Positions 1,187-59,383 of a stretch of DNA of 64,000 nt are shown here, one piece after another (within the stretch, counting starts at the first letter, position 1; each line of letters opens with the position of its first letter). The notes beneath the pieces are model-generated. The model saw only the letters and a list, made by a program, of their open reading frames with translations, was not told the DNA's origin and did no database searches. Location of the stretch: positions 124,001 through 188,000 of the forward strand of contig JACUUV010000001.1 of the NCBI GenBank assembly GCA_014859095.1, read 5' to 3'. The position numbers were made by a program, and so were the translations under genes. The DNA comes from Clostridia bacterium (GTDB lineage: Bacteria; Bacillota; Clostridia; Peptostreptococcales; Acidaminobacteraceae).

Positions 1187-1195
1187 TCACAAAAA

Positions 1196-1620
1196 AAATA
1201 AGAATAGTGCGCTTTTTTTTTCAATGTTTTGTGAAACGAAACATTGGGCGTAGGTATGGTTCTCGCGAAGCGAAACTATACTAGCCTATGTCTTTATGTT
1301 CTAAATAGTACAAAAAGGAAACTTACCTACGCGTAAAATAAGAATAGTGCGCTTTCGCGCACTAATGGTGACTGAAATAGAATAAGTTTTCTTCAGTAAC
1401 ATCTTTAAATGTCAACTGAGACGCTAATAAGTTTCCTTCGGAAACTTACCTACGCGTAAAATAAGAATAGTGCGCTTTCGCGCACTAATGGTGACTGAAA
1501 TAGAATAAGTTTTCTTCAGTAACATCTTTAAATGTCAACTGAGACGCTAATAAGTTTCCTTCGGAAACTTACCTACGCGTAAAATAAGAATAGTGCGCTT
1601 TCGCGCACTATTCTTATTTT
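1196..1620. repeat. hairpin-rich repeat array with 123-bp tandem units
   Basis: A 123-bp unit begins at 1331, 1454 and 1577, the third copy being partial. Each unit holds several perfect small palindromes: GTGCGC-TTTC-GCGCAC, ACTGAA...TTCAGT, ACAT-CTTTA-AATGT and AAGTTTCC-TTC-GGAAACTT. The whole array is bracketed by AAAATAAGAATAGTGCGC at 1196-1213 and its exact reverse complement at 1603-1620. Before the tandem part, 1222-1331 holds a hairpin CAATGTTT...AAACATTG and a segment bounded by CGTAGG (1249) and CCTACG (1326). No coding potential is evident. A related copy in opposite orientation lies at 55454-55656. Confidence 0.9.
1581..1620. terminator. perfect 18-bp hairpin, terminator for the zinc-ribbon gene
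   Basis: AAAATAAGAATAGTGCGC (1581-1598), a four-base loop TTTC, then its exact reverse complement (1603-1620). It begins two bases beyond the minus-strand stop codon at 1622. Its T-rich outer arm makes it a plausible intrinsic terminator in both directions. It is also the last, partial unit of the repeat array, so it may be part of the repeat that has been recruited as a terminator. Confidence 0.7.
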
Positions 1621-1621
1621 A

Positions 1622-1780
1622 TTAATGTTCCCTAGTTTTGGTCTCATACATCATCGAATATTCGTGGTCGACTTCAGATTGACAAGTTTTACAAAGACTA
1701 TATTTATTCACTTTTTTCTCATCACCACATCGTTTGCAAAATTTCACTTCAAATTGATTACCTCTGATCGCATCTTTCAT
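1622..1780 (-). CDS. small zinc-ribbon protein (52 aa)
   Basis: The translation begins MKDAIRGNQFEVKFCKRCGD and later reads YSLCKTCQSE: two Cys-x2-Cys pairs 12 residues apart, the pattern of a small treble-clef or zinc-ribbon protein. The ATG at 1780 is preceded by GGGAGG with good spacing, and a perfect hairpin terminator follows the stop codon, so this looks like a real monocistronic gene. Function is unknown; small zinc ribbons often bind nucleic acid or protein partners. A 12-bp palindrome ATTGTATACAAT lies upstream at 1810-1821. Confidence 0.72.
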   Translation of the reverse strand: MKDAIRGNQFEVKFCKRCGDEKKVNKYSLCKTCQSEVDHEYSMMYETKTREH

Positions 1781-8252: not shown

Positions 8253-8338
8253 CCCTTCGGTAGCACGGCTGCCATTCATTTCTGAAAGGCCCTATGGCTT
8301 TGCGTCCCATCGTTTCCAATGGTTTGCCTTTATCGGTG
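8253..8338 (-). ncRNA. cyclic di-GMP-I (GEMM-I) riboswitch
   Basis: On the minus strand the conserved elements appear in order: GGCAAACC, a CCATTG-GAAA-CGATGG hairpin with the GNRA tetraloop, GGGACGCAAAGCC, GGGCC, then ATGGCAGCCGTGCTACCG. These match the GEMM-I consensus, including the tetraloop-receptor hairpin. The 3' end runs into GAAGGGAG, which includes the ribosome binding site of the transglutaminase-like gene. The outer stem (CTTC with GAAG) overlaps that site and there is no terminator before the start codon, so control is probably at translation. Confidence 0.9.
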
Positions 8339-57532: not shown

Positions 57533-59383
57533 ATGAAAACCCAAAAAGGCAATCTGTCCATTCATAGTGAAAATATTTTCCCGATCATCAAGAAATGGTT
57601 GTATTCCGACCATGATATTTTTGTGAGAGAATTGGTTTCCAATGCAAGTGACGCCATAACCAAAATCAAAAAACTAACCACAATGCAAGAAATCGACTTG
57701 GACCCGGATGAGCAATTCAAGATTGGCATTCATCTGAACGAAACTGAAAAGACACTTACCTTTTCAGATAACGGAATAGGCATGACCGATGAGGAAATCA
57801 AGAAATACATCAATCAGATCGCATTTTCAGGTGCGGAAGATTTTCTGAACAAGTATAAGGACAAATCAGACAAAGACCAGATCATAGGTCACTTTGGACT
57901 TGGATTCTATTCGGCTTTCATGGTTGCCGAAAATGTCGAGATCCACAGTTTGTCCTATCAGAAAGATTCGGAACCGGTAATCTGGCGCTGCGACGGCGGT
58001 ACGACTTTCGAAATGGAAAAAGGCACCAAAACAACCCGAGGAACGGACATCATTTTGAATATCAGTGAAGATGGCAAAGAATTTTTGAATGAATACAAAC
58101 TCAAAAACATCATAGAAAAATACTGTTCCTTCATGCCTTATGAAATCTACCTCACAGTGGAAGGCAAAACTGTGGAAGATGAAATCAAGCCAATCAACAC
58201 CACTCTTCCCCTCTATGCCAAAGCACCTTCGGATTGCACCGACGAAGAATACAAAGACTTTTATCAAAAAACTTTCAACGACTACAAGGAACCCTTGTTC
58301 TGGATCCACCTCAACATGGATTACCCTTTCAATTTGAAGGGAATTTTATATTTCCCAAAATTGAATACGGAATTTGATACCATTGAAGGTCAAATCAAAC
58401 TTTACAACTCACAAGTCTTTGTAGCCGACAATATCAAGGAAGTCATTCCGGAATTCTTGCTGCTGCTTAAAGGCGTCATCGATTGCCCTGATCTTCCACT
58501 CAACGTTTCCAGGAGTTTTCTACAAAATGACGGATTCGTCAGAAAAATTTCAACCTATATCAGCAAAAAAGTAGCTGATAAACTGGGTGGTCTTTTCAAG
58601 ACGGAGAGGAATTCATTTGAAGCATTTTGGAACGATATTAGTCCTTTCATAAAATTCGGGACACTCAAAGACGAAAAATTTTATGAGGGTGTGGAAAAAA
58701 TCCTCATGTTCAACACTACAGACAATCGTTTCGTGACACTCGACGAATACCTTGCAGATGCCATCGGAAAGCACGAAAACACTATTTTCTATGTCTCCGA
58801 TCCTATTCAACAGGCACAATACGTCAGAATGTTCAAAGAACAAGAACTCGAAGCTGTGATTTTGGATCACCATATCGATCAGCCTTTCATTTCACTTCTT
58901 GAATCAAAGCGTGAAGGCATATCGTTTGCAAGAGTTGATGCGGACCTCAATGAACACTTCAAGGAAACCCATGACTGGAGCGAAGATGAGAAGGCCGTCA
59001 TACTCGAAAAACTGGAAGCACAATTTAAAAAAGCCCTTCACCTCGATAAAATCAAAATTCAACTCGAAAAAATGAAAAATGAAGGCCTGTCCAGCATGAT
59101 CATTCTTTCCGAAGAATCGAGAAGAATGCAGGACATGATGAAAATGTACAGTGTTTCAGGCATGAATCCCGATCTGTTCAAAACCGAAACAACGTTGTTG
59201 CTCAACATCAAACACCCTCTGGTTCAGCATTTGATAGAGAATGAGGAGGCATCCGAAGAAATTCGTTTTATGATTTGTGAACAACTCTATGATTTGGCGA
59301 TGCTCAGCCACACACATTTGTCGCCCGAGGCGATGACAAAGTTTATAAAACGCAGCAATGATCTATTGTTGCGATTGATCTGA
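57533..59383 (+). CDS. htpG: molecular chaperone HtpG (Hsp90)
   Basis: 616 residues, typical length. Start at the ATG after AAGGAGTGAACAATACA. N-terminal GHKL ATPase: ELVSNASDAITKIKKL (N box), FSDNGIGMTDEEI, GHFGLGFYSAFMVA, GTDIILNI; middle and C-terminal domains intact (NVSRSFLQND). The upstream perfect CIRCE suggests HrcA control, unlike the class III regulation of htpG in Bacillus subtilis. The stop codon overlaps the lrgA start (TGATG). Confidence 0.96.
   Translation: MKTQKGNLSIHSENIFPIIKKWLYSDHDIFVRELVSNASDAITKIKKLTTMQEIDLDPDEQFKIGIHLNETEKTLTFSDNGIGMTDEEIKKYINQIAFSGAEDFLNKYKDKSDKDQIIGHFGLGFYSAFMVAENVEIHSLSYQKDSEPVIWRCDGGTTFEMEKGTKTTRGTDIILNISEDGKEFLNEYKLKNIIEKYCSFMPYEIYLTVEGKTVEDEIKPINTTLPLYAKAPSDCTDEEYKDFYQKTFNDYKEPLFWIHLNMDYPFNLKGILYFPKLNTEFDTIEGQIKLYNSQVFVADNIKEVIPEFLLLLKGVIDCPDLPLNVSRSFLQNDGFVRKISTYISKKVADKLGGLFKTERNSFEAFWNDISPFIKFGTLKDEKFYEGVEKILMFNTTDNRFVTLDEYLADAIGKHENTIFYVSDPIQQAQYVRMFKEQELEAVILDHHIDQPFISLLESKREGISFARVDADLNEHFKETHDWSEDEKAVILEKLEAQFKKALHLDKIKIQLEKMKNEGLSSMIILSEESRRMQDMMKMYSVSGMNPDLFKTETTLLLNIKHPLVQHLIENEEASEEIRFMICEQLYDLAMLSHTHLSPEAMTKFIKRSNDLLLRLI

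Follow-up and report, generated by a model that had tools for sequence, protein, structure and literature searches.

The window analysed in this work, a stretch of 64,000 nucleotides from a Clostridia bacterium (G000:C17:124001-188000), contains an array of palindromes in which a unit of 123 bp is exactly repeated. The question raised by this locus is what the repeated unit consists of and how it came to be amplified there. A preliminary description had reported exact 123-bp periodicity, identity of adjacent units and several hairpins within each unit. These observations were borne out: TRF gave a period of 123 with 2.4 copies and 100% matches over 1317-1610, a repeat search found that the 123-nt copies 1317-1439 and 1440-1562 are identical and that a third start of 48 nt follows at 1563, and the hairpins can be read straight from the sequence. 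The array contains no gene, as had also been stated, and the ORF listed at 955-1284 is probably spurious. The components of the locus are listed below (window coordinates).

1195-1621: the whole array, made up of a partial T copy, the B module with the CAATG hairpin, two full 123-bp units and an intact terminator-like palindrome (repeat searches)
1622-1780, minus strand: ORF of 52 amino acids with CxxC pairs (translation), the stop codon of which abuts T
1580-1621, minus strand: T, the intact terminator-like palindrome, with a 19-bp stem and a 4-nt loop (arms 1580-1598 and 1603-1621, 100%)
1545-1578, minus strand: A module of unit 1, GCGTAGGTAAGTTTCCGAAGGAAACTTATTAGCG (G000:C17:125545-125578)
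1488-1517, minus strand: segment of the unit 1 tail holding an inverted patch; its counterpart in unit 2 is at 1365-1394
1457-1487, minus strand: partial T copy of 31 nt separating units 1 and 2 (L062, duplication of 31 nt)
1422-1455, minus strand: A module of unit 2 (G000:C17:125422-125455)
1334-1364, minus strand: partial T copy of 31 nt separating unit 2 from the partial unit (repeat search)
1317-1332, minus strand: first 16 nt only of a third A module, fused to older sequence
1248-1286, plus strand: B module, GCGTAGGTATGGTTCTCGCGAAGCGAAACTATACTAGCC, a bulged stem with a GCGAAGC tip
1222-1246, plus strand: CAATG hairpin (CAATGTTTTGT-GAA-ACGAAACATTG) ahead of the B module
1195-1215, minus strand: leftmost partial T copy, comprising the loop and the 3' arm; it represents the duplicate left on the far side by the first insertion

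Along the minus strand, the 52-aa ORF (end 1622), whose product looks zinc-ribbon-like by eye, is followed by T (1621-1580), by an A module with its tail and a 31-nt partial T, then by a second A module, identical in its tail, and a second partial T, and finally by the 16-nt A start, the inverted B module with the CAATG hairpin and the last partial T; the next minus-strand ORF beyond the array is 1013-156. It follows from this order that the 123-nt unit consists of a C, an element of 91 nt and 31 nt of copied terminator. The "unit" seen in the window is thus an element plus a copied terminator, and the earlier statement that there is no spacer has to be corrected: about 31 nt in each 123-nt unit are a copy of the terminator-like palindrome of the neighbouring gene. 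The inverted repeat reported to bracket the array is present (1192-1212 and 1603-1623, 21 nt, 95% complementary with a perfect core of about 18 nt), but it is not a terminal repeat of the transposon type, because the right arm is one half of T (1580-1621) and the left arm a partial T copy; the idea of transposon ends was therefore rejected. An Rfam scan of 1195-1621 yielded nothing at gathering score. Elsewhere in the window there is a c-di-GMP-I-GGC riboswitch aptamer above the Rfam gathering score (8255-8337, minus strand) and a 21-bp tandem repeat (59037-59078, 2 copies, 85%).

When the array was used as BLAST query, 49 matches were obtained in its own genome (G000); thus the unit, with its CGTAGG/CCTACG ends, is dispersed. 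Occurrence at this place only, together with an artefactual period, had been named beforehand as what would refute the description, and it does not apply. The congeners G001, G002 and G003 gave at least 23, at least 22 and at least 4 matches, respectively, and among the 61 genomes searched by BLAST matches were found in these four, which belong to one genus, with at least six weak ones in G048. A structural pattern detected 35, 56, 42 and 3 modules in G000-G003. In the other genomes of the order any pattern match was seen in 9 of 293, one each except for G258, whose six matches are unrelated in sequence to the family; a reversed control pattern gave similarly small numbers. The exact A module was present in 45 stretches of the named genome collection, which may not hold the window's own record; they come from the MAG assemblies JAIOSU (titled Clostridiales bacterium) and JAGXHV (Bacillota bacterium), congeners already counted. 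Among the genomes searched, the family is genus-specific, found here in only one genus. Plasmid or phage origin was rejected, since no element match was found in either the plasmid or the phage collection.

The family comprises at least six module families with the common frame GCGTAG[GT]T-stem-GNA-like loop-stem-TAGC[GC], the A core being GCGTAG[GT]T-hairpin-TAGC[GC]. The elements are non-coding and 57-185 nt long, a length of 57-58 nt being recurrent, and the modules are dispersed in high copy number at extragenic positions with GTAG at the 5' foot of the hairpin, two traits of GTAG-tagged REPs. For closer analysis we used 72 non-redundant A modules in loci L054-L208, counting orthologous and tandem copies separately and leaving out modules less than 60 nt from the left or less than 120 nt from the right end of a locus. 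The base before GCGTAG is C in 70 of the 72, and the loop is GNA in 54. These modules were picked by pattern, which makes their conservation partly circular; a search by hairpin only found GCGTAGTT or GCGTAGGT preceding 55 of 59 hairpins. Hairpins with GNA loops have exceptional stability when DNA is single-stranded. The better fold of the B module is that of its GTAG strand (-7.0 kcal/mol, compared with -5.4), and the A module is nearly strand-neutral (-6.8 on the GTAG strand against -6.6 kcal/mol). In G003 three copies of one related family lie among tRNA genes (G003:C17 and C6; L033, L037).

The A modules are accompanied by a second hairpin. In 62 of the 72 a hairpin with a score of at least 9 ends no more than 2 nt from the base that precedes GCGTAG. 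Random positions drawn from these loci showed such a hairpin in 11 of 3000 cases, and the opposite side of the modules in none of 72. A less strict test, made earlier on all GCGTAG[GT] sites at score 7, had been positive for 58 of 76, the random rate being 14%. As a rule the adjoining hairpin is a terminator-type palindrome with an A-tract and a T-tract. For the B modules, ATTGG, the end of a CAATG-type hairpin, stands directly before GCGTAG in 27 of 28. The orientation of flanking ORFs, which were called mechanically and are not annotated genes, fits this arrangement: of the 60 modules with an ORF no farther than 150 nt on the T side, 47 have the nearest one co-oriented, most T-side stop codons being 22-62 nt away, and the nearest far-side ORF is opposed in 44 of 58. 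The window locus is exceptional in that both neighbouring genes run in the same direction. A near-identical terminator, AAAGCCAAGAGTGC...GCACTCTTGGCTTT, occurs at the unrelated loci L023, L024, L074, L092, L105 and L150, as if it were a repeat in its own right.

Orthologous loci were located with a joined flank query and compared. At G000:C121 an element lies behind a terminator, the G002 counterpart is an empty terminator, and in the filled site 21 nt (loop and 3' arm) are repeated after the 58-nt element. The G001 counterpart of G000:C46 is likewise an empty terminator, the far-side duplicate in G000 having decayed, and at G000:C56 the hairpin is kept without the element in G002. G001 lacks the element of G000:C48:36.7k and has another terminator there; the G003 counterparts of G000:C48:140k and C37 are without element. 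The insert at G000:C39 counts against insertion behind terminators, as neither G001 nor G002 has a terminator at its site. Elements shared by two or three species at other loci show that some insertions predate the species split. The far-side duplicate is a general feature: a suffix of T of at least 10, 12 or 14 nt recurs beyond 24, 17 and 14 of the 72 A modules, respectively, whereas swapping T between loci gave permuted means of 2.4, 0.6 and about 0.5 (0.48 for at least 14 nt). That the long duplicate (at least 14 nt) is retained at only 14 of 72 sites, two of them from one tandem array (L104), has to be counted against the insertion model. At L056 the duplicate of 25 nt extends beyond the end of the palindrome, which shows that the hairpin foot is not an absolute boundary.

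Two other explanations have to be weighed against these comparisons. The elements could be MITE-like and owe their movement to a conventional (DDE) transposase with a preference for terminators and target duplications of 20-31 bp. The long duplicates at filled sites and the clean single insertion at G000:C121 opposite the empty G002 site would agree with this, but elements of 57-58 nt without terminal inverted repeats and with variable 3' ends would not, and we regard it as unlikely. Alternatively, the elements could be neither mobile nor selfish but selected structures behind terminators, retained at convergent gene ends and serving in RNA 3'-end protection, termination back-up or protein binding. 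Such a role would account for the position behind ORFs, the strong conservation of the hairpin and a compensated pair change in T: one stem pair of the window's T differs, A-T to C-G, from G001 and G002. The terminator at C104, too, shows compensated differences, at several pairs. Taking into account that presence varies between congeners at one locus, that the family is absent outside the genus among the genomes searched and that there is no Rfam match (see above), we consider a purely selected element improbable.

At the window locus itself G001 and G002 carry the same insertion without the extra unit. Together with seven places in the fetched loci where A modules of one orientation start less than 200 nt from each other (periods 123, 48, 103, 80, 108, 80 and 160), this supports the earlier suggestion of recent amplification. 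The patch in the unit tail is inverted in the window, whereas G002 has it forward in its orthologous locus; 22 of 26 aligned positions agree (0 of 2000 letter shuffles were as good), suggesting template switching. That this control relied on simple shuffles is a limitation. In the simplest reading, a foldback template switch in the lineage of the window would have been followed by return to T and by exact duplication of the unit. That the 123-bp repeat is an assembly artefact is very hard to believe: G000 is an assembly of 134 contigs, several of which end inside these repeats, and the exact copy number in the array is uncertain for this reason, but other unit lengths occur at other loci and in other assemblies, and misassembly of the congeners' form does not explain the inverted patch.

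The inverted patch also bears on whether a dedicated transposase is needed. It is conceivable, though we doubt it, that template switching during replication is enough for the palindromes to spread and rearrange: a polymerase that stalls at the terminator hairpin would copy a distant GTAG hairpin and re-enter the terminator at the loop. Besides the patch, junctions near hairpin loops, the alternation of A and B module halves at several loci and the highly variable tails would be expected from such a process; what it leaves unexplained is the fixed C-GCGTAG start (70/72), the recurrent length of 57-58 nt and the one-sided position. L139, L088 and L011 show this alternation for 3' halves, in the order A half, tail, B half, tail, and the joints lie close to hairpin loops. 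Seven elements of 57-58 nt with largely intact terminator duplicates have tails that are 58% identical (43% beyond position 7), too little for fresh copies of one source, which counts against the insertion model; either there are many diverged source copies, or each insertion produces a new tail.

As to a mobilising enzyme, the preliminary description had pointed to a Y1 (REP-type) transposase. This was a promising hint in that GTAG is at the hairpin foot and each of the genus's four genomes has Y1 genes (6, 2, 2 and 3 domain matches in G000-G003), but only one of the 13 Y1 loci (L049) has part of an A module adjoining, which counts against the insertion model, and no RAYT flanked by the same REPs was found among the 13 loci (neighbourhoods of up to 1.5 kb, draft assemblies). 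At L049 half an A module lies at a broken contig end, and a GGGGACAGGT end is on the other side. Three long Y1 proteins scored 72.5, 52.5 and 21.7 bits against NF047646 (REP-associated transposase; cut-off 80). By eye, the motif reads HYH in L046, HLH in L049 and KYH in L052; because KYH replaces the HUH-type motif, the last may be inactive. It is a short Y1-like protein (L052 1147-1800, minus strand) with one HUH His apparently changed to Lys, encoded upstream of a thioredoxin-reductase-like ORF, and similar proteins occur in the other three genomes (L047, L048, L050), encoded next to the same gene as far as the loci show; it is possibly domesticated. The protein of L041 is a plain IS200 transposase, and GCGTAGGT near its gene was rejected as neither A nor B module.

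A second dispersed repeat, GGGGACAGGTNNNAATTGGTACC, has 42, 42, 30 and 0 copies in G000-G003 (e.g. L049 978-1000, L044 1374). Its GGGGACAGGT...GGTACC ends bracket a Y1 gene in G001 (L044) and partly in G000 (L049); the repeat is a family separate from the modules and lacks GTAG. A modules stand beside GGGGACAGGT ends in 8 of 72 cases, against about 1.4 expected from density, and this adjacency and the arrangement at L049 are suggestive, not proof. Spread by reverse transcription was rejected, since RVT_1 had no match in the draft assembly of G001, which has more modules than the other genomes. Also rejected was an autonomous element of 8 kb with module-bearing ends on contig C90, its ORFs reading by eye as ordinary chromosomal genes.

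Taken together, the interpretation given in the preliminary description is partly supported. We give about even chances to the reading that the array is a locus of genus-specific, GTAG-tagged palindromic elements that are inserted 3' of terminators and mobilised in trans by a Y1 enzyme, the unit having been amplified later. The terminator would fold as single-stranded DNA, probably at the replication fork, and a Y1 (HUH) transposase that acts on single strands and belongs to the RAYT/TIR-associated type would insert a folded GTAG hairpin in trans at the terminator's 3' foot, half of the terminator hairpin being duplicated by gap repair or staggered joining. Direct repeats and palindromes would then promote template switching and slippage in replication, and give rise to the 123-bp units. 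As the intact terminator stays beside its gene, little cost to the host is expected. The published Y1/RAYT chemistry, cleavage between C and T in the parts examined of PMC8266576, does not predict a target duplication of 20-30 nt. More tentatively, the family may represent hairpin-targeted mobile DNA, in which a single-stranded palindrome lands at the 3' foot of a terminator and duplicates half of it, and the terminator survives for reuse; repeated rounds or slippage would build arrays of element plus half-terminator.

Several known systems resemble this family in part. A CRISPR array was rejected, as unique spacers are lacking and the two 123-bp units are identical. Group IIC introns insert behind intrinsic terminators; unlike them, the elements described here are non-coding and only 57-185 nt long, and RVT_1 is absent from the draft assembly of G001. 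The BOX elements of pneumococcus are likewise modular intergenic repeats, a likeness of description. By analogy, the family appears to work like the GTAG-tagged REPs (RAYT/TnpA-REP), with which it shares GTAG at the 5' hairpin foot, extragenic position often behind genes, high copy number, several families per genome and, in the B module, a bulged stem, a feature required in E. coli according to the parts examined of PMC8266576. It differs from them in the second, usually terminator-like hairpin directly before GTAG, in the far-side terminator duplication and the conserved TAGC[GC] after the stem, and in that no REP-flanked RAYT was seen among the 13 Y1 loci scanned here. The Y1 gene with GGGGACAGGT...GGTACC ends (see above) resembles TIR-associated Y1 transposases (TIRYT), but here the bracketing ends belong to the separate family without GTAG. 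The opposed A and B modules of the window, with GTAG outside, are reminiscent of the REPINs of Pseudomonas fluorescens SBW25. Since inverted pairs are a minority here (of the 68 A modules with 250 nt available downstream, 7 have an inverted partner within 250 nt and 53 have no partner), the family was not classified as REPIN.

The new features are the terminator-adjacent position and the half-terminator duplicate. The word "terminator" does not occur in the parts examined of PMC3733652, PMC3116915 and PMC8266576, nor "Firmicutes" in those of PMC3733652 and PMC8266576, and no description of this arrangement was found in the literature searched, the coverage of which excludes most subscription papers. 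If the proposed reading is true, the insertion mechanism of REP-like elements could be studied in a natural system in which filled sites can be compared with empty ones, the landing structure is defined and the scar can be recognised, and landing behind a terminator that is kept intact would be a harmless strategy. It would also offer a simple reason for the flanking sequence in tandem REP clusters, as in the tandem clusters of near-identical REPINs, which include flanking sequence according to the parts examined of PMC3116915.
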